NCBI GenBank assembly: GCA_903813345.2
Contig: CAIIXF020000011.1
Location: forward strand, 36,428,166-36,492,165
Direction of reading: 5' to 3'
Source of the DNA: Owenia fusiformis
Taxonomy: Eukaryota > Annelida > Polychaeta > Sabellida > Oweniidae
Length of the DNA stretch: 64,000 nt
Position numbers and translations under genes: made by a program. The stretch's first letter is position 1; the number at the start of each line of letters is the position of its first letter. Positions 6,000-64,000 of the stretch are shown piece after piece. A model generated the notes under the pieces. The model worked only from the letters and a program-made list of their open reading frames with translations. It was not told the origin of the DNA and searched no databases.

Positions 6000-6738
6000 A
6001 TGCCACGCAAACGTAAAACAGTTCCTAAAAAGATTGATGATGAAAAGCGACAAAAGCTGACATGGAATATGTCTGATGTGCCAACAGCATCAAAAGAAAG
6101 TTTAATTAATGATGTGTGTAGCACTTCAACTGCGGCTGTCACATGTAAACCTTCTTCATCAATAGCAAATGCAGAACCTCATACTGAACAGACAACTCCA
6201 AATAGAACTATTTATCACCAACTCAATATAGAGAAAGAGTTGTGCAGTTTTGGTATTGGAATTACACATAGTGGAAGTATAATAAAAAAAGACTTTCCAT
6301 ATTGTAAACTAGGGGAGATCCTCGCTGGTTTACCTGATTTGGAAGATGAAACAAAACTTGAGATTGATACATTATTTTCTACTTCTGATGCCACTACACT
6401 CTTTGTTAGTCAAGTCCCTGGTTGCCATCTGCTAGTGTTTGAAAGTAAACTTAGTGCACCAGTGAAAAGCAGACCCAAAGATGTCAAACTTGCTGTGTCA
6501 AATTATTTCAAAGTAGAATGCAGCCTACCATTCAGCTGTTTTGAAGCACTGAGATGTTCCAGTTGGTTTCTCATCCAGTTCCGATATGTTAACACTGTGA
6601 CAAAGCAATTAGAGCTGGATGTGTACCTAACAAAACAGGCCATCTGCAGACTGCATTATCCGTGTGAATTCCTCCGGCTGAAGAAAACATTCCAAGCTCT
6701 GAAGGTCCTCATCGACTTTTACTACGGTGTTACATCTA
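6000..6738 (+). CDS. SHPRH: SHPRH coding exon 1 (N-terminus)
   Basis: Encodes residues 1-246 plus one base. The ATG at 6000 is chosen because an in-frame TGA lies at 5970-5972 and the first residues (basic stretch, then [12 protein letters not shown]) match the SHPRH amino terminus. The middle is Ser/Thr-rich and poorly conserved. The end ([18 protein letters not shown]) aligns loosely with the vertebrate N-terminal domain. The donor is GTATGT at 6739, phase 1, and the open frame runs only to a stop at 6761. A donor at 6726 is possible but does not fit the next exon's phase. No promoter could be identified upstream, and 5' UTR exons are unknown. Confidence 0.9.
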
Positions 6739-9700
6739 GTATGTATGAATCATGCAAATGACCAGGCCCATAGCCAGCTTTTGCCAGGGGGGGGGGGGGG
6801 TTAAAAAATTCCAAGGGGGGTTCAGATTTGACAATTTGGGCCCAAAATCACATTGTGAAAATTGCATGATTTTGAAAAAAATTTGGCTACGGGCCTGATG
6901 ATTATGTATTTTAATAATTTATGGCATAACAAGACTCCTGAGCAGAAGTACAATGTAGTTTTAAATTTGAAAATATGACAAGACACCTATCTCTAGTCTC
7001 TACTCATTGCTATATATATACATCCTATAGCTCTTATGTCAGTGATACAATATGGTTGTTTGTATCTAGAATGTCAATGCCATTTGTCCATCCTGTTTGA
7101 GAGAAAAACTAACTGCTGTATAAATCTTGGTGAATATTTCTGATTAATATTATATACAAGTGATACAGGTAAACCCAACTTGCCATCTATACTACTCGTT
7201 AGAATGATATTGATATGTACATTTATCTTTTAACACAAAAAGGTCCTGATTATAAAGTGAGAAGGGACAATGCAGAAGAAGACATGGAAGAAAAGGAGGC
7301 CATCACTGATGTACTGGGTGCTGTAAAAAACCTACATTCTTCAGAATATGGCTCAAACTGTTCTTCATTCGTTCAACATGAGGCTTTAAAGCCCATGTTA
7401 AGAGCCTACCAGCAAGATGCCGTGTGCTGGATGATCCAAAGGGAAAAATTGCAAGAAAAAGTAAAGGAAGGTAAACGTCAGAAACTTACTTAAAGAATCA
7501 GTGTTAATATTAGTAGTGAGATAAATACGCACCAACTTGAAAATTGAAAAATCAAAGGATGCTACAGTCGTGAGGTACTTTAATTGAATTTTGAATTATC
7601 ATTTAATATTATATAATATATCTTTCCTTTATGGCAGGTTTAACCTTCTGATAGTTCCAATTACCATAGTGAAAATTTATTTGTAATTTTTTTGTCTTAA
7701 CCAGGGTTAAGTGCAAATGTTGCCAATATAATATGTTATAGAATTTCATTCTGTGCATTCTAGATGATTTACACATACTATTCGAGGAACTGAAAATGTG
7801 CAATGGAGAGCTACTCTACTACAATAAGTATCTTGGAATGTGAGTACAGAGTACTGAGATAACCCCTATCAGCTGTCTGGATCTAGCAGAATAAATGGAG
7901 ATGAATAAGACAAGATTAAAAGAGAGAATCAGATATAGCCAGCAGGCAAACAAAAAATTGTCTCAATTTTAGAATATTTCTGGCTCATGTCATTCCTTGT
8001 CATGTCTATTTTCTAAAAATCCCCAAAGTACACAGTTTGTTTCAAGAAAAGTAAAGATTTTTTACAATAATGTATTATTTTTCTATCAGAATGGTTACCA
8101 TTCTTATTATTTGGGAGAATTTAAATATTTTTCACTCAATTTTACACTTTGAATCTATAATAACTTCATCAATTTACAACATATTGTGAATCTTTTGGGA
8201 GATATTGTATTTGAGATTTTAAGTAATAGATTGGTAGGTTATTTGTACATGTTGCTTGTAATTTTGTCACTCCTATAGATCTGATTTTGCCTTTAAACAA
8301 GATCCATTTAAATTCTTGTGAGAGAATAAGAACTTTTTTTGTTGAATCTTACATGTCTTACATGATGCCATTTTGTTCCAAATAGGTCCGAATAGCTATT
8401 TTATTTCATTCTCAAGAATTGGCAGAAAAGAACAAAACACAAGTAGACTAAAGAACAAAAATTGTTTATTATAAACAATTATATAAAATCTATATAAATA
8501 ATTTAAAGTGTTGTCAATTGGTGACCATTGCATAAAGGATGTGTTTTTTTACAGAATGTTTCAATACTGTAAAACGGGTATTGTTAGCGAGGGGTAATTG
8601 TTAGCGATCGCTATTGTTTCGCTAAAAATTAAATTCGTTAAAATAAACCAGGGTTAAAATAAACCGGGCGCTAAAATTTGCAAATTCCCCGGAAACTACA
8701 TGAATACTAGTATTTAAAATTAATCTGATTAGTTAGATGAGATTACAGTACATGTACTTTGGACCAATACCATGTGCGTTAGAAGTCTTACATTTTGATA
8801 ATTCCTCTGTCATGTCCGTTATTCATTCTTCTGCCATAAATGATAAAATTTCTAATGCATTTCGCTAATTTGATTTTTTACAGTAAATGGTTTAAGGGAA
8901 AAACAATGATGAATTTAGTTCACCATATCGCTACCAATCCTCACTTGAATCTTGCAATATCATTCAACGATCTTCCTATGTCACCACCACAATTGTTGAC
9001 AAACTTTTGTGGCACTGGTTGTTTGGTGGTTGGTATTTGGCATTTATTGTCTGTAACAAATGGCATGTACATGTAGTAACATTTTGCATGTTAATGCCTT
9101 GTTAAATGAGCTACAGTGGTTGGAAGAAATTTTGAAAGAACAGATTCACTTAGACTAACAGGAAGAAAAATGACAAGTAAATTAAAATGTATTTTATTTG
9201 ACAGACTTGTTGAAGAAAAACCTTTGGCAACAGTGTCTCCACCTGGTGGAATTCTAGCAGATGAAATGGGGCTTGGTAAAACTGTTGAGGTGTTGGCAGT
9301 TATTTTGCTTCACCCTCGCAGTGACTTAGTGACGCTGCAACCTCTCATTGAACAAAGACTCGTCTATAAGGTACGTCTATAAGGTACGTCTATAAGGGGG
9401 CGCTTATTACAGAGAATACGGTAAGTGGAATTATCTGAGGGAGAAATAGCATTTTGAGAAGCTTTCAGTTAAAACCATTGATACTATTGTGACACAATAT
9501 GCTAGACCTATCCATTTTAACAGCTTAATTTTATTTGAACCAAGATTTGACTTTTAAACTGACCACATGTATCAGATCGAAAAATATTGGTTTGTCTATC
9601 AAGTATAGTTATAATTCATCAATTAGCTTTTGTTTTGAGATTAATATTATTGATAATCATGAAGCACAATCTGTTAAATCAGGTTTGCTTTGTGATTCTT

Positions 9701-12700: not shown

Positions 12701-15700
12701 AACAACAGCAATGGCAAAAATGACATTGGTGATAGAGACACCAAAACAAAAGAGACAATTAATGATGTTTCTGACATACATGAAGATATCAGTATAAAAA
12801 CAGGATTGAACATTGTTGCTGACAATATCACAGATGCTAAAAACAGCATAAATAATGTCAATGATGTGCAGACAACACCCAGTCAGTTTAATAAACAGGG
12901 ACAACCTGTAGCTAGAACAAGCCAAGAGAGTACAAACATATGGATTGAACATGATAGCGCAAGGACAATGAATACAGACCTATTTGCAGAAAATCATTGT
13001 GATCAACTGAACAATGGTGTGAAACATGATACTATGTCATCTCAGGATAAAATAAATAACAGCTGTGATAAGATGTGTGTCATAGAAAGTGCAATACTTA
13101 AATCAAAAGAGGAACTCCAACTGCCAGAGCTACAAGATCACCAATATGTTTCCCCTTGTTCTGAACATGAAAAAAACATCCATGACAATATAGACAGTGA
13201 TAGCCGAAAAACAGAACGAAACATTAATGGTGACATCATCAAAACAGATGACATCACAAACTATGACATCAACAAAACTGTAATTCCAGTCATTCAAAAT
13301 GCTTCCAACGCGCCAAAGAAACATGGCTCTCCTATACACGGCCAGGCTTCTGTTGTGGGAAATATCAATAATGCTTATACCTCTCAGGAAGAAAAAACTG
13401 GAGTAATAAATATTCCAGACCTCCAAGACAATATGAATTCCACTTGTCAGTTAGAAATCGCCAATGTTGAAAATGATGTAAAAACTCCAAAATACAATGG
13501 TAATTTGGCAAGAGAAAATAGAGATAAGGAGACCAACACAAAATCAAATGAAACAATTGCAGACAATACAGAAGAAGTCAGCACAGAGCAACAACCTTAT
13601 TCTGATAAGGGAGACAAACAGGGGAAGGTTTCAATGAAACAACTTAAAAAGAATGCTGGGTCATGGAAAGAAGTTGTTGATGAAACTACAAGATTTGAGT
13701 GCATTTGTGGTAGGTACAGTTAAAGTATGGTGCATTTGTGATAGGTACAGTTAAAGTATAGAGCATTTGTGGTAGGTACAGTTAATGTATAGTGTATTTG
13801 TGGTAGGTACAGTTAATGTATAGTGCATTTGTGGTAGGTACAGATAAAGAATAGTGCATTTGTGGTAGGTACAGTTAAAGTATGGTGCATTTGTGGTAGG
13901 TACAGATAAAGTATTCTGCATTTGTGGTAGGTACAGTTAAAGAATTCTGCATTTGTGGTAGGTACAGTTAAAGTATGGTGCATTTGTGGTAGGTACAGTT
14001 AAAGTATGGTGCATTTGTAGTAGGTACAGTTAAAGTATGGTGCATTTGTAGTAGGTTCAGTTAAAGTAGAGTGCATTTGTGGTAGGTACAGTTAAAGTAT
14101 TGTGCATTTGTGGTAGGTACAGTTAAAGTATAGAGCATTTGTGGTAGGTCCAGATAAAGTATTGTGCATTTGTGGTAGGTACAGTTAAAGTAGAGTGCAT
14201 TTGTGGTAGGTACAGTTAAAGAATTCTGCATTTGTGGTAGGTACAGTTAAAGTATGGTGCATTTGTGGTAGGTACAGTTAAAGTATGGTGCATTTGTAGT
14301 AGGTACAGTTAAAGTAGAGTGCATTTGTGGTAGGTACAGTTAAAGAATTCTGCATTTGTGGTAGGTACAGTTAAAGTATGGTGCATTTGTGGTAGGTACA
14401 GTTAAAGTATGGTGCATTTGTAGTAGGTACAGTTAAAGTATGGTGCATTTGTAGTAGGTTCAGTTAAAGTAGAGTGCATTTGTGGTAGGTACAGTTAAAG
14501 AATTCTGCATTTGTGGTAGGTACAGTTAAAGTATGGTGCATTTGTGGTAGGTACAGTTAAAGTATGGTGCATTTGTAGTAGGTACAGTTAAAGTATGGTG
14601 CATTTGTAGTAGGTTCAGTTAAAGTAGAGTGCATTTGTGGTAGGTACAGTTAAAGAATTCTGCATTTGTGGTAGGTACAGTTAAAGTATGGTGCATTTGT
14701 GGTAGGTACAGTTAAAGTATGGTGCATTTGTAGTAGGTACAGTTAAAGTATGGTGCATTTGTAGTAGGTTCAGTTAAAGTAGAGTGCATTTGTGGTAGGT
14801 ACAGTTAAAGTATTGTGCATTTGTGGTAGGTCCAGTTAAAGTATAATGCATTTGTGGTAGGTACAGTTAAAGTATAGAGCATTTGTGGTAGGTACAGTAA
14901 AAGTATTGTGCATTTGTGGTAGGTACAGTTAAAGTATGGTGCATTTGTGGTAGGTACAGTTATAGGATAGAGCATTTGTGGAAGGTACAGTTAATGTATA
15001 GTGCATTTGTGTTAGGTACAGTTAAAGTAGAGTGCATTTGTGGTAGATACAGTAAAGGGATAGTGCATTTGTGGTAGGTACAGTTAAGGAATAGTGTATT
15101 TGTGGTAGGTACAGTTAAAGGATAGTGCATGTGAGTAGGTACAGTTAAAGTATAGTGCATTTGTGGTAAGTACAGTTAAAGGATAGTGCATTTGTAGGTA
15201 CAGTTAAAGTATAGTGCATTTGTGGTAGGAACACTTATAGGATAGTGCATTTGTGGTAGGTACAATTAAAGTATAATGCATGTGTGGAAGGTACAGTTAA
15301 AGTATAGTGCATTTGTGGTAGGTGCAGTTAAAGGATAGTGCATTTGTGGTAGGTACAGTTAAGTATAATGCATTTGTGGTAGGTACACTTAAAGTATAGT
15401 GCATTTGTGGTAGGTACAGATAAAGAATAGTGCATTTGAGAAGGTACAGTTTAAGTATAGTGCATTTTTAGGAGGTTCAGTTAAAGTATAGTGCATTTGT
15501 GGTATGTACTCAATATGGTGTTTACAATAATACTATACCTCCTCAATGTGGTTTTTACAATAATACTATTCCTCCTCAATGTGGTGTTTACAATAATACT
15601 ATACCTCCTCAATGTGGTGTTTACAATAATACTATTCCTCCTCAATGTGGTGTTTACAATAATACTATACCTCCTCAATGTGGTGTTTACAATAATACTA

Positions 15701-18700
15701 TACCTCCTCAATGTGGTGTTTACAATAATACTATTCCTCCTCAATGTGGTGTTTACAATAATACTATACCTCCTCAATGTGGTGTTTACAATAATACTAT
15801 ACCTCCTCATGATCAAATATAAGTGCTGGGGAATTGTCTGACGCTGTAGTAAAGAATAATTGAATTTTATATAATTTTAGGTGTGCAGGGAGAAGGGAAA
15901 GATGAGACACTTAGAGTTCAATGTGTTGAATGTGGCCTATGGCAACACCCAGAGTGCCTGAACTATGACCTCAAAGACCCACTTAGACAGCCATATAAAT
16001 GTCCTCATTGTCATATTTTTGCTGTAAGTACAATATGTCGAATGTGGCATGTGGTAACACCCAGAGTGACTGAACTATGACCTAAAAGACCCACCAAGAC
16101 AGCCATATAAATAAAAAGTACTGACATGATTAAGGCTCCTCTTTTGTGACTGGCCAGTTAGTGCTAGGTGTCTGTAACAAATAGTTCCTCTTGAATAAAT
16201 CTATCTACTTTCTATATTCCTAAAAGACAGTATACTTGGTTTCATGGAATTCATATAAAATAGTTATCTTATTACATAATATTACTTAGAAGATAATTCA
16301 TAATAAACGCCAGGATTGACCCAGTATTTGCTATACAGCAAACCTTTAGAATGGTTACCTAACTGATAACTCAGGCCATCAACAGGGTTTTCACTGAAAG
16401 GTTATTTAATGAATTATTTCAACACGTTTCATGGCTTAACATGACATTATGTGGTCAATATATTTCAGCTCCCAATGTCATCAAAAGCTACTCTGATCAT
16501 ATCTCCTAGCAGTATTTGCCACCAATGGGTAGAAGAGATTCTTAAACATGTGAAACAGCAGGGTATTAAAGTACATGTAAGTACAACTCTTATATGGTAC
16601 AGGAGATTCCTCAACATGTGAAACAGCAGGGTATTAAAGTACATGTAAGTACAACTCTTATATGGTACAGGAGATTCTTCAATATGTGAAACAGCAGGGT
16701 ATTAAAGTACATGTAAGTACAACTCTTATATAGTACAGGAGATTCTTCAACATGTGAAACAGCAGGGTATTAAAGTACATGTAAGTACAACTCTTATATG
16801 GTACAGGAGATTCTTCAACATATGAAACAGCAGGGTATTAAAGTACATGTAAGTACAACTCTTATATGGTACAGGAGATTCTTCAACATGTGAAACAGCA
16901 GGGTATTAAAGTACAACTCTTATATGGTACAGGAGATTCTTCAACATGTGAACCAGCAGGGTATTAAAGTACAAGTAAGTACAACTTTTATATGGTAGAG
17001 GAGATTCTTCATCATGTGAAACAACAGGGTATTAAAGTACATGTAAGTTCAACTCTTATATGGTACAGGAGATTCCTGAACATGTGAAACAGCAGGGTAT
17101 TAAAGTACATGTAAGTACAACTCTTATATGGTACAGGAGATTCTTCAACATGTGAAACAGCAGGGTATTAAAGTACATGTATGTTCAACCCTATATGGTA
17201 CAGGAGATTCTTCAACATGTGAAACACCAGGGTATTAAAGTACATGTAAGTTCAACTCTTATATGGTACAGGAGATTCTTCAATATGTGAAACAGCAGGG
17301 TATTAAAGTACATGTAAGTACAACTCTTATATAGTATAGGAGATTCTTCAACATGTGAAACAGCAGGGTATTAAAGTACATGTAAGTACATCTCTTATAT
17401 GGTACAGGAGATTCTTCAATATGTGAAACAGCAGGGTATTAAAGTACATGTAAGTACAACTCTTATATAGTACAGGAGATTCTTCAACATGTGAAACAGC
17501 AGGGTATTAAAGTACATGTAAGTTCAACTCTTATATGGTACAGGAGATTCCTCAACATGTGAAACAGCAGGGTATTAAAGTACATGTAAGTACATCTCTT
17601 ATATGGTACAGGAGATTCTTCAACATGTGAAACAGCAGGGTATTAAAGTACATGTAAATTCAACTTTTCTATGTAGAAACAGCAGTGTATCAAAGTTCAT
17701 GTAAGTACAACTCTTATATGCAGTGTTCAGCATTATATCTTAAAGCTTAATCTTTTAATGAGTTCGAATTCATAAAAACATTAAAATATGAATATTTTAT
17801 TTAGTCTATCCTCTATTTGAGTATGTTACTAAATTACACTTTCTGCCTACATTTTAGCTGACATCGTTATGCTTTTATTATGTCCCCATCACATAGTGTG
17901 GGGCCATATTGTCGGCCTAGGCGCGTCCGTCCGTCTGTCCGTCCGTCTGTACGTCCGTCCGTCCGTCTGTCCGTCCGTACGTCCGGGAGTTTTCTCCAAA
18001 ACCGCTACAGATATCACCTTCAAATTTTCAGGGATAACTTATGAGTGCATAGAGATGTGGATGAAAAAAAAATTAACTCGAAACCTACTTCCTGTCGGCC
18101 ATTTTGAAGTCAAATGCTAAAATCCTTGTCTGCAAACTTTAAGAAAAACGGCTTCACAGTTGCTTTTAAAACTTTAATATCTTGTTCAGCTCACTTCATT
18201 CTAGATCTGATTAGGTTTTGAACCTGTTAGCTCAGTCATGGCAGCCATTTTGAATGTCTGAAGAAAAGTTAGCGCGCGATAATACTTTGTATCATATTGA
18301 ATGGTGTTTTTGAGTTTTCATACTTTAACTATTTAGTAGCTTTATAAATAATTTCAGATGTACTTTCTAGTAAAAGCCTATGTTATTGTTAACAGTAGTT
18401 ATATGTGATAATTTTGTAAAAGGAAATCAGCAAAAACTCATAATCACTTTTTTATTGTCGGCCATTTTGGATTTTTCCGTCCTAAAATCTTGTCTGTGAA
18501 GTCTTGTCTGCGCGTTTTCAGATGAACCGTTTTTTAGATCAATTTTAATTTTTCAGGGATGACTCTTACTATAACAATCTAGATCTGATTAGTTTTTTGG
18601 CATTCTGGATAAATGCCAAGGCAGCCATTTTGGATTTTCCGTCCTAAAATCTTGTCTGTAAAGTCTTGTCTACACGTTTTCAGATGAACCGTTTTTTAGA

Positions 18701-21700
18701 TCAATTTTAATTTTTCAGGGGTGATTCTTAGTATGAAAATCTAGAACTGATTAGTTTTTTGGCATTCTGGGTAAATGTCAAGGCAGCCATTTTGGATTTT
18801 CCGTCCTAAAATCTTGTCTGTAAATTCTTGTCTACGCATTTCCAGGTGAACCATTCTGTAGATCAATTTCAAATTTTCAGGGATGATTCTTAGTATGAAA
18901 ATCTAGATCTGATTAGTTTTTTGGCAGTATGGATAAATGTAAAGGCAGCCATTTTGGATTTTCCGTCTTAAAATCTAGCCTGTAAAGTCTTGTCTACGCA
19001 TTTTAAGGTGAACGGTTTGGTAGATCAATTTCAAATTTTCAGGGATGATTCTTAGTATGAAAATCTACATTTTTTTTTGGCATTCTGCGTTAATGTCAAG
19101 GCAGCAATTTTGGATCTTCTGTCCTAAAATCTTGTTTGTCTTGTCTATGCGTTTTCAGGTGAACCGTTTGGAAGATCAATTTCATATTTTCAGGGATGAA
19201 TTTTAGTATGAAAATTTACAAACTGACTAGTTTTTTGACATTTTGGGTAAATGTCAAGGGAGCCATTTTGGATTTTCCATCCTAAAATCTTGTCTGTAAA
19301 GTCTTGTTTACATGTTTTCTGGTTATAATAACTGTGTGACGGATCAATTTCAAATTTTCATGGCATTCTGGGTAAATTTTAAGGTGGCCATTTTGGATTT
19401 TCCATCCTCAAATTAAGTCTTGTCTACTCATTTTCAGGATAACCATTAGACGGGATCACCCATTGGTGGGGACATTTTGTACACATTTGTGTTCTTGTTA
19501 ACATCAGAGTTTGTGTAGTAGTTAGAGAGTATTGCATTATATATGTGGTAATATGTATATGTATATATGTATATGTGGGGTGTGTGACAAGTTGAAGGGC
19601 CAAGGATAACAGAACTGTCAAAGGTCATCACTTAGTGATAAGTCTATATGTCAGAATGAAAGGTTATTAGGTTAAACACATCAACTTTTTCAATTGACAA
19701 ATACACCTACAGTAAATTTACATTGCCAGAAGGCAGTTTCCTCTTGCTCAACTTATTTGACATAAGTACTCTTTAAAAGTGTTTTAAATGAACACATTAA
19801 TTTTAGAATAAGTTCAGTACTTTTATTTGTAGCTTGTGGCTTGTAACTCCGGGTAAACTTCAAGAAGATATATAAATACATGAAAATAAATGTAAATGAA
19901 CCGATTTAAAAAGTGGCAATTTTTGGCTCTCCCTCTACATGTAACATATTCTGACTCCCTTATAAACCAAATGACTCATTTACCAATCTCAGACCATTTT
20001 GATTGAATATGATATCTTTTGACTGAAATCTCATTGGTCATTTTTATCGCACCCTAAGGTGCTATATTGTAATCAGTTTGCCGGGCGGTTGGGCGGGCGG
20101 TTGGGTGGGCGTTCGGGCCTCCCGAATAATCTTGTCTACAGGTTTGCAGCCAAACCATTTGAGGGATTCATTTGAAATTCTCAGGGATGTTTCTACCTAT
20201 GAAATTTTAGAACTGATTAGTTTTTCGGCATTCTGGGTAAATGTTAAGGTGGCCATTTTGGATTTTCCGTCCTAAAATCTTGTCTGTCAAGGCTTGTCTA
20301 CAGGTTTCCAGCCAAACCGTTTGAGGGATTCATTTGAAATTCTCAGGGTATTTCTACCTATGAAAGTTTAGAACTGATTAGTTTTTCGGCATTCTGGGTA
20401 AATGTTAAGGTGGCCATTTTGGATTTTCCGTCCTAAAATCTTGTCTGTCAAGGCTTGTCTATAGGTTTCCAGCCAAACCGTTTGAGGGATTCATTTGAAA
20501 TTCTCAGGGATGTTTCTACCTATGAAAGTTTAGAACTGATTAGTTTTTCGGCATTCTGGGTAAATGTTAAGACGGCCATTTTGGATTTTCCGTCCTGAAA
20601 TCGTGTCTGTGAAGGCTTGTTTTTAAAAAATAAAAAAGAATTTCCCATTGAGAACAATGTTAAATTAAAAAAAAATTTTTAGAAATAACTAAACGGTCAA
20701 TATTTCCAATATTCACATTTTTTGTAATACATCAGTATATCTTTTAGCAGGATTCAGGAAAATCTGAAATGTAGAAAAAAAGCTGATACACTGTGAAGTT
20801 ATACCTTAAAACGTGTCTCTTGAGGGTTGTTTACAGGTTTCATGGATTCATCCTAAAATTTTAGAGATGTTTCTATGGAAAGTTTAGAACTGATTAGTTT
20901 TTAGGCAGTCTGGGTAAATGTTAAGGTGGCCATTTTGAATTTTCCATCCCGTAAAGTGTATTCTGTTCAAGGGTGCGATTCTGTTCACCCTGTGGCTTAT
21001 TTTAATTTCTTGTGATATTGATTCTTGGATATCAAGACCATTTTGATTGAATATGATATCTCTTGACTGAAATCTCATTGGTCATTTTTTTTAATTTCTT
21101 GTGATATTGATTCTTGGATATCAAGATTTTTTATAATCTCACATTTTTTAATTCAGATAAGAAAACAATTTAGTTACATTGTACATCATATTCAAAAATG
21201 ATGAGAAATTAAGCTGCAAAATTAAGATGCTAGGTCAATCTAGGTAAATGCACCACCAACATGATGATATGATGTTAATCATGTATCTTGTAACCAATTC
21301 TTACACGCTTGTAGATTTACAATGGAGTAAAAACAAAGTATATCCAGCCTTGGACGCTGGCCAATCAGGACATAGTGGTGTGTACCTATGAGACACTGAG
21401 GACTGAGCTGAACTATGTTGATCTTCCCCACAGTAATTCTGAGAGTGGCCGTAGACTGAGGAATCCCAAACGTTTCATGGCTATACCAAGTCCCATAATT
21501 GCTGTTGAATGGTGGAGAGTAAGTCATGCTTATTTATTGTATTTCTCAATAGTGGAGTCAGATAAGTGTTCAATTGCACATGCTATATATATAGCATCAT
21601 TTTTTGACATAAGTATTATTAATACATATATTTTTGATATCTAACGAAGTGGTGTTGAAAAGTGGCCCCATTTGATTATAACAGGCCTTGAAAATTTTGG

Positions 21701-48700: not shown

Positions 48701-51700
48701 ACATTATCACGCTATTGTGATGTCACACAATGCAGTGACACCAGGACACTGCCATTTTCAGCCCTTCTTGGATGGAGCAAAATTTGATCAAAATAGCAAT
48801 GAAAAAGCAAGAATCACGTATAAACATCCGTGCTGTGATTAAATTTAATGCTTTGAAGAAGTTTTCAGTATTAGAGAACTAAAGAGGTTTGTTGGAAGTC
48901 TATGGGAAAGAAGAAGTAAAAAAATCTACAGTATATAGGTGGTATTCTGTACATGTATTCTGAATATGCTGTGAGAGCCGAGATGTCCAATCTTGGAAAA
49001 TATGATTTTGAGGGTGCATACCTAGAATGGTTGAGGAGATGCCAAAAATGCATTGATTGTCATGGCGAATACTTTGAGAAAGAGTGAGATTGCACCAGAA
49101 GGATAAGGAATCAAAAGTCTTGCACAAAATTGATTTGCTCCACAAAAGGACTCCCTAGAAGTCATGGATTAGATTATGTCCTGAATATCAGTTGAGACTT
49201 GTATAATTAACTTGCAATTAGTGACAAACAATGTGCTCCGTGGACCCTGTTGTGACGTCATGATTGGAACTCTCACTTTACCGAAGTTGGGTGTAACTTT
49301 TTGAAATTTTCACACAATAATTATCACATGTTTGTGATTATGTGTCCCAAGTTTGAATAAAATCTGGTTGATATAAGTGAAATTATAGCATTTGTCCCAC
49401 TACTTATGAATCCCCCCTCGTACTAGAGGGGCTTTAGAGCATTTACAAACGCACGAAATGTATTGTTTTAAGGCAACTTTTATGACATATAATGTATTTA
49501 AAGCTGATTAATTTTAGATTATATTCGGTTCAATTTTACAAATAATGAATAGTATTACAGTATATCGAAAAATATACAATAATTTACATTAACTTGCGCA
49601 GACTGCAAACAATGTACATGGTTGGCGCGTTCTTGATAATAAGAATTAAAGGTTGAACTTAAAAATCAAACATTTTCTTTTTTAAACATAATAAATCTTT
49701 AAATCAAGAAAATAAAAATAAGATTGATGATTGAACTTTTCATAGTCAACTGCGACTGTGTCGACGCATGTTTATTTACTTAGCTAATTAGATATGTAAA
49801 ATTGTTAATGGCCGCAACGGATAATACGTAAGCTGCTGTTCGGATAAGACATTTCTATATGATTAATAACAAATCCCGGACAGAATGTTATTCAACAGTA
49901 CTTGATCTTATCAGTTATTATTCAATTTGGATAATAAATCTATTATCTCGTCGTATTGATGTTTATTATATAGTGTTTCTCGTTGTGTAAGATGTGCTGG
50001 TTGCGTACATTTAGGCTTTGCCTCCAAATATGGATCCATTGTTTGGCAGCTATCATAACATCCTAAAAAGGTCAATTTGGTGAAATCAAATATCAGGTTG
50101 CTTCTCATATTGATACATTACATACAAGACACTCCTTAAATATAATATTACCACCAGCCCTAAAACTATCTTGTTGATGCATGTAAGAATGTGTCTCATC
50201 TTGTTTTAATGTACCTACCAACTCCAACAATGGCATTATCATTATTTAACTGTGCAAAACAGCATGTATGAATGTGTCTCATCTTGTTTTAATGTACCTA
50301 CCAACTCCAACAATGATATTATCATTATTCAACTGTGCAAAACAGCATGTATGAATGTGTCTCATCTTGTTTTAATGTACCTACCAACTCAAACAATGAC
50401 ATTATCATTATTCAACTGTGCAAAACAGCATGTAAGAATGTGTCTCATCTTGTTTTAATGTACCTACCAACTCCAACAATGGCATTATCATTATTTAACT
50501 GTGCAAAACAGCATGTATGAATGTGTCTCATCTTGTTTTAATGTACCTACCAACTCCAACAATGGCATTATCATTATTTAACTGTGCAAAACAGCATGTA
50601 TGAATGTGTCTCATCTTGTTTTAATGTACCTACCAACTCCAACAATGATATTATCATTATTCAACTGTGCAAAACAGCATGTATGAATGTGTCTCATCTT
50701 GTTTTAATGTACCTACCAACTCAAACAATGACATTATCATTATTCAACTGTGCAAAACAGCATGTAAGAATGTGTCTCATCTTGTTTTAATGTACCTACC
50801 AACTCAAACAATGACATTATCATTATTCAACTGTGCAAAACAGCATGTATGAATGTGTCTTATCTTGATTTAATGTACTTACCAACTCCAACAATGGCAT
50901 TATCATTATTCAACTGTGCAAAACAGCATGTGTGAATGTGTCTCATCTTGTTTTAATGTACCTACCAACTCAAACAATGACATTATCATTATTCAACTGT
51001 GCAAAACAGCATGTAAGAATGTGTCTCATCTTGTTTTAATGTACCTACCAACTCCAACAATGACATTATCATTATTCAACTTTGCAAAACAGCATGTATG
51101 AATGTGTCTCATCTTGTTTTAATGCACCTACCAACTCCAACAATGACATTATCATTATTCAACTTTGCAAAACAGCATGTATGAATGTGTCTCATCTTGT
51201 TTTAATGCACCTACCAACTCCAACAATGACATTATCATTATTCAACTGTGCAAAACAGCATGTAAGAATGTGTCTCATCTTGTTTTAATGTACCTACCAA
51301 CTCAAACAATGACATTATCATTATTCAACTGTGCAAAACAGCATGTATGAATGTGTCTTATCTTGATTTAATGTACTTACCAACTCCAACAATGGCATTA
51401 TCATTATTCAACTGTGCAAAACAGCATGTGTGAATGTGTCTCATCTTGTTTTAATGTACCTACCAACTCAAACAATGACATTATCATTATTCAACTGTGC
51501 AAAACAGCATGTAAGAATGTGTCTCATCTTGTTTTAATGTACCTACCAACTCCAACAATGACATTATCATTATTCAACTTTGCAAAACAGCATGTATGAA
51601 TGTGTCTCATCTTGTTTTAATGCACCTACCAACTCCAACAATGACATTATCATTATTCAACTTTGCAAAACAGCATGTATGAATGTGTCTCATCTTGTTT

Positions 51701-54700
51701 TAATGCACCTACCAACTCCAACAATGACATTATCATTATTCAACTTTGCAAAACAGCATGTAAGAATGTGTCTCATCTTGTTTTAATGTACCTACCAACT
51801 CCAACAATGACATTATCATTATTCAACTTTGCAAAACAGCATGTATGAATGTGTCTCATCTTGTTTTAATGTACCTACCAACTCCAACAATGACATTATC
51901 ATTATTCAACTTTGCAAAACAGCATGTATGAATGTGTCTCATCTTGTTTTAATGCACCTACCAACTCCAACAATGACATTATCATTATTCAACTTTGCAA
52001 AACAGCATGTATGAATGTGTCTCATCTTGTTTTAATGCACCTACCAACTCCAACAATGACATTATCATTATTCAACTTTGCAAAACAGCATGTATGAATG
52101 TGTCTCATCTTGTTTTAATGTACCTACTAACTCCAACAATGGCATTATCATTATTCAACTGTGCAAAACAGCATGCATGAATGTGTCTCATCTTGTTTTA
52201 ATGTACCTACCAACTCCAACAATGACATTATCATTATTCAACTTTGCAAAACAGCATGTATGAATGTGTCTCATCTTGTTTTAATGCACCTACCAACTCC
52301 AACAATGACATTATCATTATTCAACTTTGCAAAACAGCATGTATGAATGTGTCTCATCTTGTTTTAATGCACCTACCAACTCCAACAATGGCATTATCAT
52401 TATTTAACTGTGCAAAACAGCATGTATGAATGTGTCTCATCTTGTTTTAATGTACCTACCAACTCCAACAATGGCATTATCATTATTTAACTGTGCAAAA
52501 CAGCATGTATGAATGTGTCTCATCTTGTTTTAATGTACCTACCAACTCCAACAATGACATTATCATTATTCAACTTTGCAAAACAGCATGTATGAATGTG
52601 TCTCATCTTGTTTTAATGCACCTACCAACTCCAACAATGACATTATCATTATTCAACTTTGCAAAACAGCATGTATGAATGTGTCTCATCTTGTTTTAAT
52701 GCACCTACCAACTCCAACAATGGCATTATCATTATTTAACTGTGCAAAACAGCATGTATGAATGTGTCTCATCTTGTTTTAATGTACCTACCAACTCCAA
52801 CAATGGCATTATCATTATTCAACTGTGCAAAACAGCATGTATGAATGTGTCTTATCTTGTTTTAATGTACCTACCAACTCCAACAATGACATTATCATTA
52901 TTCAACTGTGCAAAACAGCATGTATGAATGTGTCTCATCTTGTTTTAATGTACCTACCAACTCCAACAATGGCATTATCATTATTTAACTGTGCAAAACA
53001 GCATGTATGAATGTGTCTCATCTTGTTTTAATGTACCTACCAACTCCAACAATGACATTATCATTATTCAACTGTGCAAAACAGCATGTATGAATGTGTC
53101 TTATCTTGTTTTAATGTACCTACCAACTCCAACAATGACATTATCATTATTCAACTGTGCAAAACAGCATGTATGAATGTGTCTTATCTTGTTTTAATGT
53201 ACCTACCAACTCCAACAATGGCATTATCATTATTTAACTGTGCAAAACAGCATGTATGAATGTGTCTTATCTTGTTTTAATGTACCTACCAACTCCAACA
53301 ATGGCATTATCATTATTTAACTGTGCAAAACAGCATGTATGAATGTGTCATATCTTGTTTTAATGTACCTACCAACTCCAACAATGACATTATCATTATT
53401 CAACTGTGCAAAACAGCATGTATGAATGTGTCTTATCTTGTTTTAATGTACCTACCAACTCCAACAATGGCATTATCATTATTTAACTGTGCAAAACAGC
53501 ATGTATGAATGTGTCTCATCTTGTTTTAATGTACCTACCAACTCCAACAATGACATTATCATTATTCAACTGTGCAAAACAGCATGTATGAATGTGTCTT
53601 ATCTTGTTTTAATGTACCTACCAACTCCAACAATGGCATTATCATTATTCAACTGTGCAAAACAGCATGTATGAATGTGTCTCATCTTGTTTTAATGTAC
53701 CTACCAACTCAAACAATGGCATTATCATTATTCAACTGTGCAAAACAGCATGTATGAATGTGTCTTATCTTGTTTTAATGTACCTACTAACTTCAACAAT
53801 GACATTATCATTATTCAACTGTGCAAAACAGCATGTATGAATGTGTCTTATCTTGTTTTAATGTACCTACCAACTCCAACAATGGCATTATCATTATTCA
53901 ACTGTGCAAAACAGCATGTATGAATGTGTCTCATCTTGTTTTAATGTACCTTCCAACTTCAACAATGACATTATCATTATTCAACTGTGCAAAACAGCAT
54001 GTATGAATGTGTCTCATCTTGTTTTAATGTACCTACCAACTCCAACAATGACATTATCATTATTCTACTGTGCAAAACAGCATGTATGAATGTGTCTCAT
54101 CTTGTTTTAATGTACCTACCAACTCCAACAATGGCATTATCATTATTCTACTGTGCAAAACAGCATGTATGAATGTGTCTCATCTTGTTTTAATGTACCT
54201 ACCAACTCCAACAATGGCATTATCATTATTCAACTGTGCAAAACAGCATGTATGAATGTGTCTCATCTTGTTTTAATGTACCTACCAACTCCAACAATGA
54301 TATTATCATTATTCAACTGTGCAAAACAGCATGTATGAATGTGTCTCATCTTGTTTTAATGTACCTTCCAACTTCAACAATGACATTATCATTATTCAAC
54401 TGTGCAAAACAGCATGTATGAATGTGTCTCATCTTGTTTTAATGTACCTACCAACTCCAACAATGATATTATCATTATTCAACTGTGCAAAACAGCATGT
54501 ATGAATGTGTCTTATCTTGTTTTAATGTGCCTACCAACTCCAACAATGGCATTATCATTATTCAACTGTGCAAAACAGCATGTATGAATGTGTCTCATCT
54601 TGTTTTAATGTACCTTCCAACTTCAACAATGACATTATCATTATTCAACTGTGCAAAACAGCATGTATGAATGTGTCTCATCTTGTTTTAATGTACCTAC

Positions 54701-57700
54701 CAACTCCAACAATGATATTATCATTATTCAGCATGTAAGAATGTGTCATATCTTGTTTTAATGTACCTACCAACTCCAACAATGATATTATCATTATTCA
54801 ACTTTGCAAAACAGCATGTATGAATGTGTCTCATCTTATTTTAATGTACCTACCAACTCCAACAATGACATTATCATTATTCAGCATGTATGAATGTGTC
54901 TCATCTTGTTTTAATGTACCTACCAACTCCAACAATGACATTATCATTATTCAACTGTGCAAAACAGCATGTATGAATGTGTCTCATCTTGTTTTAATGT
55001 ACCTACCAACTCCAACAATGATATTATCATTATTCAACTTTGCAAAACAGCATGTATGAATGTGCCTTCCAACTCCAACAATGACATTATCATTATTCAA
55101 CTGTGCAAAACAGCATGTATGAATGTGTCTTATCTTGATTTAATGTACTTACCAACTCCAACAATGGCATTATCATTATTCAACTGTGCAAAACAGCATG
55201 TGTGAATGTGTCTCATCTTGTTTTAATGTACCTACCAACTCAAACAATGACATTATCATTATTCAACTGTGCAAAACAGCATGTATGAATGTGTCTCATC
55301 TTGTTTTAATGTACCTACCAACTCCAACAATGACATTATCATTATTCAACTGTGCAAAACATCTTGTATGAATGTGTCTCATCTTGTTTTAATGTACCTT
55401 CCAACTCCAACAATGACATTATCATTATTCAACTGTGCAAAACAGCATGTATGAATGTGTCTTATCTTGTTTTAATGTACTTACCAACTCCAACAATGGC
55501 ATTATCATTATTCAACTGTGCAAAACAGCATGTATGAATGTGTCTCATCTTGTTTTAATGTACCTACCAACTCAAACAATGACATTATCATTATTCAACT
55601 GTGCAAAACAGCATGTATGAATGTGTCTTATCTTGTTTTAATGTACCTACCAACTCCAACAATGGCATTATCATTATTCAACTGTGCAAAACAGCATGTA
55701 TGAATGTGTCTTATCTTGTTTTAATGTACCTACCAACTCCAACAATGGCATTATCATTATTCAACTGTGCAAAACAGCATGTACGGATGTGTCTCATCTT
55801 GTTTTAATGTACCTACCAACTCCAACAATGGCATTATCATTATTCAACTGTGCAAAACAGCATGTATGGATGTGTCTCATCTTGTTTTAATGTACCTACC
55901 AACTCCAACAATGGCATTATCATTATTCAACTGTGCAAAACAGCATGCATGAATGTGTCTCATCTTGTTTTAATGTACCTACCAACTCCAACAATGGCAT
56001 TATCATTATTCAACTGTGCAAAACAGCATGTATGAATGTGTCTTATCTTGTTTTAATGTACCTACCAACTCAAACAATGACATTATCATTATTCAACTGT
56101 GCAAAACAGCATGTATGAATGTGTCTTATCTTGTTTTAATGTACCTACCAACTCCAACAATGGCATTATCATTATTCAACTGTGCAAAACAGCATGTATG
56201 GATGTGTCTCATCTTGTTTTAATGTACCTACCAACTCCAACAATGGCATTATCATTATTCAACTGTGCAAAACAGCATGCATGAATGTGTCTCATCTTGT
56301 TTTAATGTACCTACCAACTCCAACAATGGCATTATCATTATTCAACTGTGCAAAACAGCATGTATGAATGTGTCTTATCTTGTTTTAATGTACCTACCAA
56401 CTCCAACAATGACATTATCATTATTCAACTGTGCAAAACAACATGTATGAATGTGTCTCATCTTGTTTTAATGTACCTACCAACTCCAACAATGACATTA
56501 TCATTATTCAACTGTGCAAAACAGCATGTATGAATGTGTCTTATCTTGTTTTAATGTACCTACCAACTCCAACAATGGCATTATCATTATTCAACTGTGC
56601 AAAACAGCATGTATGAATGTGTCTCATCTTGTTTTAATGTACCTACCAACTCCAACAATGACATTATCATTATTCAACTGTGCAAAACAGCATGTATGAA
56701 TGTGTCTCATCTTGTTTTAATGTACCTACCAACTCCAACAATGACATTATCATTATTCAACTGTGCAAAACAGTATGTATGAATGTGTCTCATCTTGTTT
56801 TAATGTACCTACCAACTCCAACAATGGCATTATCATTATTCAACTGTGCAAAACAGCATGTATGAATGTGTCTCATCTTGTTTTAATGTACCTACCAACT
56901 CCAACAATGGCATTATCATTATTCAACTGTGCAAAACAGCATGCATGAATGTGTCTCATCTTGTTTTAATGTACCTACCAACTCCAACAATGACATTATC
57001 ATTATTTAACTGTGCAAAACAGCATGTATGAATGTGTCTCATCTTGTTTTAATGTACCTACCAACTCCAACAATGACATTATCATTATTCAACTGTGCAA
57101 AACAGCATGTATGAATGTGTCTCATCTTGTTTTAATGTACCTACCAACTCCAACAATGACATTATCATTATTCAACTGTGCAAAACAGCATGTATGAATG
57201 TGTCTCATCTTTTTTTAATGTACCTACCAACTCCAACAATGGCATTATCATTATTCAACTGTGCAAAACAGCATGTATGAATGTGTCTCATATCTTGTTT
57301 TAATGTACCTACCAACTCCAACAATGACATTATCATTATTCATCTGTGCAAAACAGCATGTGTGAATGTGTCTCATCTTATTTTAATGCACCTACCAACT
57401 CCAACAATGATATTACCATTATTCATCTGTGCAAAACAGCATGTATGAATGTGTCTCATCTTGTTTTAGCAAAACAGCATGTATGAATGTGTCTCATCTT
57501 GTTTTAATGTACCTACCAACTCCAACAATGACATTATCATTATTTAACTGTGCAAAACAGCATGTATGAATGTGTCTCATCTTGTTTTAATGTACCTACC
57601 AACTCCAACAATGACATTATCATTATTCAACTGTGCAAAACAGCATGTATGAATGTGTCTCATCTTGTTTTAATGTACCTACCAACTCCAACAATGACAT

Positions 57701-60700
57701 TATCATTATTCATCTGTGCAAAACAGCATGTATGAATGTGTCTCATCTTGTTTTAGCAAAACAGCATGTATGAATGTGTCTCATCTTGTTTTAATGTACC
57801 TACCAACTCCAACAATGACATTATCATTATTCAACTGTGCAAAACAGCATGTATGAATGTGTCTCATCTTGTTTTAATTGTACCTACCAACTCCAACAAT
57901 GACATTATCATTATTCAACTGTGCAAAACAGCATGTATGAATGTGTCTCATCTTGTTTTAATGTACCTACCAACTCCAACAATGACATTATCATTATTCA
58001 ACTGTGCAAAACAGCATGTATGAATGTGTCTCATCTTGTTTTAATGTACCTACCAACTCCAACAATGGCATTATCATTATTCAACTGTGCAAAACAGCAT
58101 GTATGAATGTGTCTCATCTTGTTTTAATGTACCTACCAACTCCAACAATGGCATTATCATTATTCTACTGTGCAAAACAGCATGCATGAATGTGTCTCAT
58201 CTTGTTTTAATGTACCTACCAACTCCAACAATGACATTATCATTATTTAACTGTGCAAAATAGCATGTATGAATGTGTCTCATCTTGTTTTAATGTACCT
58301 ACCAACTCCAACAATGACATTATCATTATTCAACTGTGCAAAACAGCATGTATGAATGTGTCTCATCTTGTTTTAATGTACCTTCCAACTCCAACAATGA
58401 CATTATCATTATTCAACTGTGCAAAACAGCATGTATGAATGTGTCTCATCTTGTTTTAATGTACCTACCAACTCCAACAATGGCATTATCATTATTCAAC
58501 TGTGCAAAACAGCATGTATGAATGTGTCTCATCTTGTTTTAATGTACCTACCAACTCCAACAATGGCATTATCATTATTCAACTGTGCAAAACAGCATGT
58601 ATGAATGTGTCTCATCTTGTTTTAATGTACCTACCAACTCCAACAATGGCATTATCATTATTCTACTGTGCAAAACAGCATGCATGAATGTGTCTCATCT
58701 TGTTTTAATGTACCTACCAACTCCAACAATGACATTATCATTATTTAACTGTGCAAAACAGCATGTATGAATGTGTCTCATCTTGTTTTAATGTACCTAC
58801 CAACTCCAACAATGACATTATCATTATTCAACTGTGCAGAACAGCATGTATGAATGTGTCTCATCTTGTTTTAATGTACCTTCCAACTCCAACAATGACA
58901 TTATCATTATTCAACTGTGCAAAACAGCATGTATGAATGTGTCTCATCTTGTTTTAATGTACCTACCAACTCCAACAATGACATTATTATTATTCAACGC
59001 TTCAAAACAGCATGCATGAATGTGTCTCATCTTGTTTTAATGTACCTACCAACTCCAACAATGACATTATCATTATTCAACTGTGCAAAACAGCATGTAT
59101 GAATGTGTCTCATCTTGTTTTAGCAAAACAGCATGTATGAATGTGTCTCATCTTGTTTTAATGTACCTACCAACTCCAACAATGACATTATCATTATTCA
59201 ACTGTGCAAAACAGCATGTATGAATGTGTCTCATCTTGTTTTAATGTACCTACCAACTCCAACAATGACATTATCATTATTCAGCTGTGCAAAACAGCAT
59301 GTATGAATGTGTCTCATCTTGTTGATCTTCTTGTCTGTTGCCTTATCAAACGTCCTTGTGACATTAACATCAAGTCTACATGTCCCATCATCATTTGGAC
59401 CATGTGCCCCAGAGCAATACTTGTAAGCGCATAGAAACCTGTTGAATTGATTTATACCAGTCGAGTTCAATGACAATGATTTCCTCATCAAAAATAATCC
59501 TAGAATTAATATGGGATATGTATGTTTCATTTTGCGTGTTTTGATTCACGTAGAGCTGAATATTCTTTTGTAGATGTGATAGAGAACTTTATGTTTTTAT
59601 TATCAGATATCCATATATAAAATGACACTTGTTGATTATTATACTGTAATAGCAAATTGCTTTGTTGAATCAGGCACTTGTAGATCATGGATATGCATAA
59701 ATGAGTTGCTGGCATAATAAATAATAGTTATGTTGTTATCTTTTAAATTAGTGTTATGTTTTTTTGAAGAGCCAAGACAATGATCTATTCCATTTTGTTA
59801 TCTTGTGCATATGTCTTAGATTATAAATTAAATATACAGTACTTTGACAATTGATATTTAAAATATTCTTTAACAAATCAACAAAAAATATCACTTTTTT
59901 TAAAACTCACATTATTTTATTTATATCCTAGCCTTATACAGTGGCAAAGCGTGGTTATTTCATGAGTGTATGCCACAAGTGAGCGAAGTTTTGTAAGGAG
60001 TTTTGGGGGTTCTTCCCCCCAAAAATTTGAAAATGAGATTGCATTAACGGGGGCATTTTAGAATATAAAATCCATCTTTATATGGCTAAGAAAATGTAAA
60101 TTATTGGCCATTTTTATACATTTTTAAAGTGTGTGGCAATTCAATTTTAAAAATCACATTTTCTCTAAATTTTGAGAGTACGCCATGAGGTTTTTGTGTA
60201 TATGAGGCACCGTCATTGTTATAAGAATTATTCGTAATTTTTGTTAGATATGAATACAAATTGTATATAAGCATATGATAACGATGTGTTTCAGTTGATT
60301 CATGGTATTTATTGTTGTATTGCACTATTGAATCAGCAGAAGGAAGAATAATTTAATTGTCAGCTTCTGTACTATGATGTTATCGCCGTGGTATTATCAT
60401 GGTATCAGGGTTTTAATAGCTCAACCAATTATAGATAATAATTAAATGTGATAAAACAGACTTGCTACCTATTGTATAGGCCTACCATAAACTAGCTGAT
60501 ATGCTGTTAATATAAAATTGGTACTTTGTTAACCTGTTTTAATTTTACATTATTTCAATGATGGGGCTAAATATAGTATAGAAAGGAGGTCTTAGATTTA
60601 TTTTATAATAGGATCCCGAGGATTTCACTCCAATGTATCTCTTAATACAAATGTGCCGCACCAAAGATTCCCTTTTGAGCACTTTTCCATGTCAATTTCC

Positions 60701-63700
60701 TCTCAAGTTTGAAGGTTTCCATGTTTGATTCCTCTTAGACTCATAACGGTCTGAATTTTATTCCTATCAACTCATAGATATATCCATGTCAACTTCATCT
60801 TGAGTTTGTTGGGACTTTTCGAAATAGACTAAAATATCCACCTTTTTTGTGATCTGTCCAAGGTTTCAGAAACCAATTTATAACATTTTTTAGAAACACT
60901 AAATTTTGACTTAAAAAGCGGGTAAAGGTATTTTCTTCGACAATTTTCCATATTTTTCCTTCCAGATTGGCCAGATCCCATGGTTTCTTCCCAAAGCCAA
61001 AATTGGCTGTGCTGCACATACTAACCTCAAGGAAACAGAATGTATAATCAAAAAAAACTCTCAACATTTGTTGATCAAAATGAATTTAACCTGAATTGTG
61101 AAACTTCTTCATAGGATGGTATTGTAATTCCAGGAGATCCATTCCACCAGGCTAAAGAAAAGGTCCCCATCTCTGCCTCATAAGTTTTTTAATATTGTCC
61201 AGTACATAATTAGAGACACTCCTGGACAATAAGGATGAGCTGGGCATGGGCTTGCTTCCTGGCATATTGTATGGCATTAATTTGAAGTGACTGGCAAATG
61301 ATGGCTTTATGTATTTGTAGATGCCCTTTCTGCAAGTTGGATGAGATGTTTAACAGATATGAGGCCCACCTCTTCTCATTTGTGGATCAACCGTATGTAA
61401 CATTCACTATGTACAATAAAACATTTAATTAAATTTATAAACGTTTATCTTAATTCTTTGATTGGCGGTTTGTGGAATTATGGATCAAACATTAAATGGT
61501 ATTAATCTATATCAACTATGTCAATCCTTGAAGTAAAATATCCAAAATGCTTAATACAAACACTTATATATGTGACATGTTTTACTGTAGAGTTATACAA
61601 GGGGAAGACCATGGTACAACCAGTAGGAGAGGAACATGGGCAGACAGTGAAGTGGAGAGGGTGCTCAAGTCTATACTGGCCTATTACAAATATTAAAGTA
61701 TGTGTATGTGTTTTACTGTAGAGTTATACAAGGGGAAGACCATGGTACAACCAGCAGGAGAGGAACATGGGCAGACAGTGAAGTGGAGAGGGTGCTCAAG
61801 TCTATACTGGCCTATTACAAACTCATGCAGAAGAAGCATCAACTTATAGAATCTGGAAACCTTCACATTAAGATATTTGAGAGCCTCAAGAAAGAATTTA
61901 GGGTATTCCCTTCATGTTTTAATGATCATATTTCTAAAATATATGTATATTTAAATATGTGGACCTGCTATAATGATCTCTTTTAGTTTGTGCTGAAGTT
62001 GTTTCACTATAATAACATTTGACATGCAAATACCATGAAATTGATCAGTTTATCGGTTTCATAAGTTTTAGTAGAATCTAAAACAAAAAAGAAAACTGAT
62101 CTTGGGTGCACTGCAGTTATTTGGAATGCTGTGTTCTGGTTGGCTAGAATTGGACACAGCTTACCTGGCCATGTATGAATGTATAATTAAACATAAAAGC
62201 TGCCATGAATCTCACTTAGAAGTACATCTTCATTTTATCTATACTTGAATTCTGAAGCTATTTTTATCTATTTTGGATTGATTAATTTATATATCAAAAA
62301 AATATTGTCATTGTCTTAAAGAAACTGCATGTCTATTGTTTATGGTATCATCTTATAAACATTATCTTGTATTTTCCTTCAGCATTTACGTGCTGTCTGG
62401 ATGGTGTTACGAGAACAAGTGGCAGCCATTGATGAGCTCTCCATGGCAACCACTAGATTGAGGCTCCGACTTCCAGATGAGCCAGTGCCTGATCCACCAC
62501 AGCCTAATATCATAGAACCTGCAGAGGTAGTTCTCAAAATTCATAGAACCCTGTGACATAAGTATCCACTTTAAGAGAATTCAAGGACTCAAAATCATAG
62601 AACTCTATGACATTTTAAGAGAACCCTGTGAGATTAGTACCTTTTATAAAACATGACATTAGTATCCATTTTAGAGAGAACCTTGTGAGGTTAGTATTCA
62701 AAGTCATAGAACCATGTAAAATTAGTATTCAATGTCATAGAGGTTAGAACCCAAATCCTTGAAACTTTTGACAGACCTACCAACCTTTAATGAGATTTTT
62801 AAAAATTGCACTACTTTTACTGGAGATTTTTCAAAAAAACAAGAGTTTTTTAAAAATGTGGTAGTTTTTGCGGAGAATGTCCATGTGCAGTATGGCAAGT
62901 GATTTTAGACAGTCATATCTTTCACCATGAGTAGTAAATTATGAATAGGGATCCCATGTCAACAATTTTCTCAAAATGATGAACCTATTTGCTCAAAAGA
63001 GGATTTCCTCTTTCTGATTTTTATTGCATGAAAAGATTATTCAAAAAGGTGTCTAAAACTTCTTCAAAATTAGAATGGTATTGAAAGTCTATTTTTGAAG
63101 ATAGCAATTTTCGATGACCAAAATTATGCTGAAAGCAATGGATAGCACGAGCTTTCCCTATGGGAAAATAACATGGGATATGTGGTTTTTTACTTTAACA
63201 CATTTTAATACCAATTCGCTTTTCAGAAGTTGTTAATATAGTGTAGAAGAAACTTTTGATATGGTTAAATTGAGAAAAACAAGTTCCTCTTTTTAGAAAA
63301 TAAACCTAACATTTTATAAAAAGTGCCAAGGTGGGGTCCTGAACCATAATTTTTCAGAGAGTTGGATTGGTATTTTATCATCATAGGGACTTTACTTGAA
63401 AGAAAACATATTGTTTTAATAAAAACCACTGTATTTATGGCCAGATTTATACATTTTCCTAGTGCGAAATTGATGGTAAAAGAAGTTGTACTCAGATAAT
63501 ATCAAAGTCTTGTTAGATTCCTTTATATAAAATATTGTAGATTTCATGAAAAATATAGATTTCAGCAAAAATATGGATTTTACAAAAAAAATTAAGGAAG
63601 ATTTTGGTAGAAATATGTTACGAGAGTTAACGGGAGATGAAAATGGTGCGAGAGTTTTTTTTTAAAATTTTTTTACAGAGAAGCAAAAATTTTATGGAAG

Positions 63701-64000: not shown

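Follow-up and report, generated by a model that had tools for sequence, protein, structure and literature searches.

Minisatellites that extend across an exon–intron boundary, termed mirages, have been described in amphioxus in Adh3, the globin genes BflGb6 and BflGb9, troponin C and PGBD5, where splicing is reported to be regular despite the repeats (PMC3087553, PMC3902484), and they have been suggested to be possibly general in cephalochordates (PMC3087553). Their tandem units of 10 to 160 bp include a donor or acceptor boundary and retain the decoy AG or GT in many copies (PMC3087553, PMC3902484). In humans, minisatellite-type repeats are also reported at exon–intron boundaries, in genes that lie within segmental duplications; variable internal tandem repeats are described there together with 27 intron modifications, and the units average 30 bp and four copies, differ between paralogs, and can yield new introns or alternative splicing (PMC2812944). 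In potato, a tandem duplication across an intron–exon boundary is reported to have made a new intron (PMC4974935). Among annelids, earthworm metallothionein genes contain large intronic minisatellite arrays, and exon 4 duplications that are missing from their transcripts (PMC12783039); the available text of that source does not describe the arrays as spanning splice sites, and an intron minisatellite from abalone is likewise not described as boundary-located in what is available of its source. We recognised no report of annelid exon-boundary minisatellites in a literature search of limited depth. The accessible text of the Owenia genome paper (PMC9977687) is silent on such arrays, and its main text contains no word that starts with "satellite".

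Here, we report arrays in the annelid Owenia fusiformis that match the known mirages in structure and are unusually many and long. As in amphioxus, the tandem unit includes the exon–intron boundary, either donor or acceptor, and decoy AG and GT dinucleotides are kept in many copies. Unlike in amphioxus, the host is an annelid and the repeats affect 9/38 junctions of a single gene, SHPRH, together with its antisense neighbor; copy number exceeds 100 in one array, compared with the 6 and 3 units reported for two amphioxus BflGb6 haplotypes. Mirages as a kind are also characterised by length differences among haplotypes and by instability in somatic tissue; the Owenia window represents a single assembled haplotype. 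In contrast to the human case, the annotated Owenia protein shows no effect of the copies, and unlike the new intron of potato, the Owenia copies remain inside existing introns. We rejected intron gain by tandem duplication as a description of this locus, since residues 1–1,492 of annotated SHPRH contain nothing derived from the copies.

Junction-spanning arrays in SHPRH and an antisense gene

The window, a stretch of 64,000 nucleotides (64 kb) of O. fusiformis DNA, carries SHPRH on its forward strand, where we placed a 20-exon model from open frames and splice signals (Table 1). The joined product is stop-free over 1,492 residues and identical, letter for letter, to residues 1–1,492 of P0121, an O. 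fusiformis protein annotated as E3 ubiquitin-protein ligase SHPRH; the exon numbering of the original prediction is that of this model. Pfam analysis of 1,355 residues of the product places SNF2-related and SHPRH helical domains 1 and 2 above the cut-off, with a PHD finger falling slightly short (22.6 bits, where 24 are required). Intron 9 starts (31758) with GC rather than GT (AAAG/GCAAGT), and this join matches the annotated protein. A second gene lies antisense within SHPRH intron 16, and the join of its exons A and B is found in annotated protein P0240. A third segment of P0240, after exon B, maps to the minus strand near 42.4–42.6 kb, and inspection by eye finds no clear GT–AG junction for the join of exon B to this segment (42369-49990, minus strand). 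The published Owenia annotation is described as combining RNA-seq, ab initio and protein hints (PMC9977687).

Table 1. Genes, junction arrays and other features of the window
Feature	Position	Strand	Unit, copies or remarks
SHPRH gene	6000..64000	+	exons 1-20; gene runs on beyond the window
SHPRH exons 1-5	6000-6738, 7243-7470, 7764-7839, 9205-9370, 12653-13709	+	
SHPRH exons 6-10	15881-16023, 16469-16576, 21315-21518, 31634-31757, 32944-33107	+	
SHPRH exons 11-15	33437-33610, 34934-35143, 35798-35974, 36238-36345, 38196-38332	+	
SHPRH exons 16-20	41857-42033, 61321-61392, 61722-61902, 62383-62526, 63912-64000+	+	
Exon 4 donor array	9361..9397	+	13 bp x 2.8
189-bp array	10907-11435		overlaps end of 379-aa minus-strand open frame
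Single open frame, 379 aa	11334-12473	-	3' end inside 189-bp tandem array
Exon 5 donor array	13698..15509	+	31 bp x 58
Exon 6 decayed duplication, two copies	15911..16112 (ends approximate)	+	shift 112 bp; most of exon plus donor
Exon 7 donor array	16528..17720	+	68 bp x 17
Exon 8 donor array	21473..31120	+	80 bp x 74; unit 1 in exon 8, others 25211-31111
Palindromic insertion, 3,661 bp	21550..25210	no strand	ends TAGTGGAGTC...GACTCCACTA; borders by eye
Exon 12 acceptor array	33717..35007	+	104 bp x 12.4; annotated copy is the last
Exon 12 donor, two copies, the second decayed	35088..35220 (ends approximate)	+	shift 94 bp
Antisense exon A donor array	50179..59323	-	83-bp unit; 107 scored copies, counting the genic one
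Antisense exon A	59254..59530	-	start codon at 59530; part of annotated P0240
Exon 18 acceptor, 2 copies	61578..61821	+	shift 131 bp; annotated copy is the second
Exon 19 donor, degenerate repeats	62510..62741	+	first unit 31 bp

Copies of an exon edge with the adjoining intron and its splice site are present at 9/38 SHPRH junctions, namely the donors of exons 4, 5, 6, 7, 8, 12, and 19 and the acceptors of exons 12 and 18, and at a tenth junction, the donor of antisense exon A. Copy numbers range from 2 to over 100 when the antisense array is included. We scanned all 38 SHPRH junctions by BLAST of 120-nt windows against the 64-kb window, and arrays were also detected with TRF and by a shifted self-comparison read by eye. 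BLAST returned spanning copies for the donors of exons 5 (55 copies), 7 (17), and 8 (74), for the acceptors of exons 12 (11) and 18 (1), and weakly for the donor of exon 19 (1, E = 1e-4). At the donors of exons 6 and 12 its matches were exclusively non-spanning (2 and 1, respectively), and the self-comparison revealed decayed duplications there; the exon 4 donor gave no BLAST match and was detected by TRF and self-comparison. The exon 6, 12, and 19 donors form a decayed group of three among the nine, with weaker matches. The remaining 29/38 SHPRH junctions have no spanning copy within the window. These include both junctions of exon 15, yet array matches adjoin them: arrays of 38 bp (37549-38188) and 18 bp (38365-39556) lie 7.5 and 32.5 nt off the exon ends.

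Most of what the original prediction said about the arrays holds. TRF recovers the claimed unit lengths and roughly the claimed copy numbers at the expected places, all nine SHPRH exon-edge duplications are present by TRF, BLAST, or self-comparison, stages from 2 to over 100 copies coexist, and the antisense exon A donor bears its 83-bp array in an annotated gene. An array was also expected at the 3′ end of another antisense gene. The 189-bp array does overlap the end of the 379-aa open frame, but this frame is only a putative gene, without a Pfam family match above the cut-off. Of the 58,001-bp gene region, 19,623 bp fall within the TRF intervals of seven of the junction arrays, and 29,108 bp within arrays that score at least 400. 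Two further stretches (17860-20650 and 31860-32860) hold arrays of 144–162-bp units and CGTC/GTCC-rich sequence, which appear to be derived from transposable elements.

The exon 8 array is split by a large palindromic insertion with inverted ends, CAA on both sides, and internal repeats of 372 and 373 bp in opposite arms. The insertion separates unit 1 of the array from unit 2 and would therefore be later than the array's beginning.

The arrays do not represent the spread of one satellite. Their units come from different exons, which supports the predicted recurrence of one process in independent junction arrays. The further claim that the units are unrelated in sequence is borne out by most of the 21 pairwise comparisons of seven units; four pairs outscore nearly all of 200 shuffles, on stretches of 17–37 columns only. 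One of these four reflects a motif common to two donors: the donor regions of SHPRH exon 5 (13697-13727) and antisense exon A (59254, minus strand) both carry TGGTAGGTACA(G)TTAAA.

Origin of the arrays and their placement relative to junctions

The arrays are probably mirages in the amphioxus sense, that is, junction-spanning tandem duplications of 13–131 bp that were grown or homogenized by slippage or unequal exchange. The seed would be a small duplication across an exon–intron junction, possibly formed at short direct repeats. The clearest such case is exon 18, where two copies are nearly identical over ~112 nt at a shift of 131 and where, by eye, the exon breakpoint and the intron side have TACAAAC in common. 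Subsequent slippage or unequal exchange could expand and homogenize the copies, and tens to a hundred copies would be ordinary minisatellite behavior. A duplication of this kind would survive because the original exon-proximal site stays intact and is still selected by exon definition, so that the extra copies become neutral intron. Speaking for this account are the exon A–exon B join of P0240, the agreement of the spliced model with P0121 over 1,492 residues, the retention of the splice core at mid-range conservation in the scored copies, the peptide of the genic exon 12 copy (both below), the TACAAAC repeat at exon 18 and the amphioxus precedent; against it, some placement tests exceed what random seeding predicts, and the breakpoints are skewed. 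The original prediction that copies are tolerated because splicing can ignore them is consistent with both annotated proteins. Such tolerance is apparently not universal, since human boundary repeats are reported to alter splicing (PMC2812944).

Although the mirage account would work without any hot spot, an alternative is that splice junctions are true hot spots of tandem duplication, through transcription- or splicing-linked breaks, R-loops, or the composition step at exon edges. We compared array placement with random expectation after reducing every array to a single unit and distributing these units at random over the collapsed gene. Three arrays were left out (one within exon 5, two upstream of the gene), the antisense array was kept as non-spanning, and the exon 8 array was counted as spanning despite the 3.66-kb insertion that separates it from exon 8. 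On this array-wise count, 6/26 arrays span a SHPRH junction versus 2.1–2.3 expected (P = 0.012–0.018), an approximately 2.6-fold excess. The excess is 5/25 without the exon 8 array (P = 0.039) and 5/16 versus 2.0–2.1 expected among arrays with a score of at least 400 (P = 0.03–0.04). Two post hoc subsets give stronger values, 5/11 versus 0.8–0.9 without the long element-like arrays of 144–373 bp (P = 0.0006–0.0008) and 6/20 versus 0.89 for units of at most 131 bp with the antisense array left out (P = 0.00009).

Position-wise comparisons depend on which repeats and controls are considered. In those by repeat period, exon 8 was added by hand since the insertion displaces its neighboring copy. 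For periods of at most 150 bp, 5/38 junctions have a repeat versus 196/5,877 intronic positions (P = 0.009), but for all repeats with periods of at most 400 bp there is no excess (6/38 versus 824/5,877; P = 0.45) unless controls are drawn outside element-like stretches (6/38 versus 225/4,701; P = 0.009). The corresponding values without exon 8 are P = 0.038 (4/38), 0.63, and 0.035. Extending the count to copies as far as 12 kb away leaves no excess (6/38 versus 248/1,500; P = 0.62), with 98/1,221 for controls outside element-like stretches (P = 0.086).

Breakpoints show a pattern of their own. Across the ten junctions, with lengths read by eye, the exon part of the unit averages 53.8 nt and the intron part 20.9 nt (P = 0.006 Wilcoxon test, post hoc), a skew that may partly be a detection effect because an exon part shorter than ~10 bases goes unrecognized. 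By the same by-eye lengths, the intron-side breakpoint lies at most ~38 nt from the junction in 10/10 cases.

The placement counts are compatible with a modest enrichment of short-period arrays at the junctions of SHPRH. They yield no general rule, since this gene was selected because it shows the pattern and neighboring control positions are not mutually independent. The hot spot claim of the original prediction thus draws weak support from the array-wise excess but none from the comparison at periods up to 400 bp, and its description of the arrays as systematically seeded on boundaries is not established by one locus picked for its pattern. Weighing the array-wise and short-period excesses and the clustered intron-side breakpoints against this selection, the vanishing of the excess in the broader counts, its weakening without the hand-added exon 8, and the 29/38 junctions that have no spanning copy, we consider a true hot spot rather unlikely. 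Slightly more doubtful still is the broader proposal that junctions are recurrent hot spots of short duplication in distant animals (annelid, cephalochordate, perhaps primates), with an intron breakpoint at most ~40 nt from the splice site and a mutational process tied to transcription or splicing.

Splice sites within the copies and their use

Nearly all scored copies retain the core of a splice site, with GT or AG kept in 253/266 copies over the five arrays scored. Counting the genic copy, GT is kept in 52/57 copies at exon 5, 16/17 at exon 7, and 100/107 at antisense exon A, and AG in 12/12 copies at the exon 12 acceptor; in the exon 8 array, GT is kept in all 73/73 scored copies, which all lie outside exon 8. 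Retention of this kind, in genes of both strands, might suggest that the arrays are functional, for example if many U1-binding donor copies protected a long pre-mRNA or tuned splicing. However, in none of the five arrays do splice-site columns rank with the best-conserved windows of the unit: the splice site is more conserved than a fraction of 0.65, 0.25, 0.12, 0.67, and 0.59 of contiguous windows for exons 5, 7, 8, antisense A, and the exon 12 acceptor, respectively. Compared with the rest of the unit, splice-site columns are better conserved in three arrays (0.957 versus 0.912, 0.984 versus 0.977, and 1.000 versus 0.916) and worse in two (0.941 versus 0.952 and 0.925 versus 0.955). Because these columns are mid-range and differ in both directions, we find no consistent sign of selection either keeping or removing decoys, and weak selection is still allowed. 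Acceptors are duplicated as well as donors, and units vary between arrays, which further argues against function and makes it, in our view, very improbable.

Annotated proteins P0121 and P0240 use the exon-proximal copy, which is the first at donors and the last at acceptors, and this choice corresponds to the shortest exon. Within one pre-mRNA, three arrays present 139 intact decoy donors (145 scored), exon 12 contributes 11 decoy acceptors and exon 18 one (12 in all), and the annotated protein uses the authentic sites only. RQACCHPQ, the peptide encoded by the genic copy at exon 12, occurs in 175 of the 238 best-listed SHPRH homologues, many of them partial; the version encoded by the array consensus, HQACRHPQ, is found in 0/238 of the same, often partial, sequences.

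We considered a reading-frame rule, which is rejected, and a stop rule. Consensus unit lengths or shifts of 13, 31, 112, 68, 80, 104, 94, 131, 31, and 83 include none divisible by three (P = 0.017), which had suggested a nonsense-decay filter. In the actual sequence, the nearest decoy is in frame at 1/10 junctions, the exon 12 acceptor, where it lies 105 nt off and is reached without a stop, which led us to reject the filter. In 9/10 cases, read-through of the real DNA runs into an in-frame stop ahead of the next copy, the same exon 12 decoy being the exception; at exon 8 the stop comes 123 nt out, within the insertion. Modelled copies contain an in-frame stop in 8/10 cases (chance 0.026 for all ten), with those of exons 18 and 19 only approximating a copied intron whose real DNA contains stops. 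We conclude nothing from the stops.

Assembly artefact is the least probable explanation, little more than a nominal concern: tandem arrays are generally prone to misassembly, but copies in the long arrays differ from each other (89–96% matches in TRF), and the published Owenia assembly, which we infer to be the source of the window, is reported to rest on 170 Gb of PacBio reads with an N50 of 25.75–30.75 kb, longer than the 9-kb array, together with optical maps and Hi-C (PMC9977687), and this long-read basis argues against an artefact.

That mirages occur in an annelid, so densely and in so many copies, suggests that the process is a broader one. Splice-site choice can be studied here as a natural experiment, and the locus offers a test both of exon edges as mutation hot spots and of intron growth.
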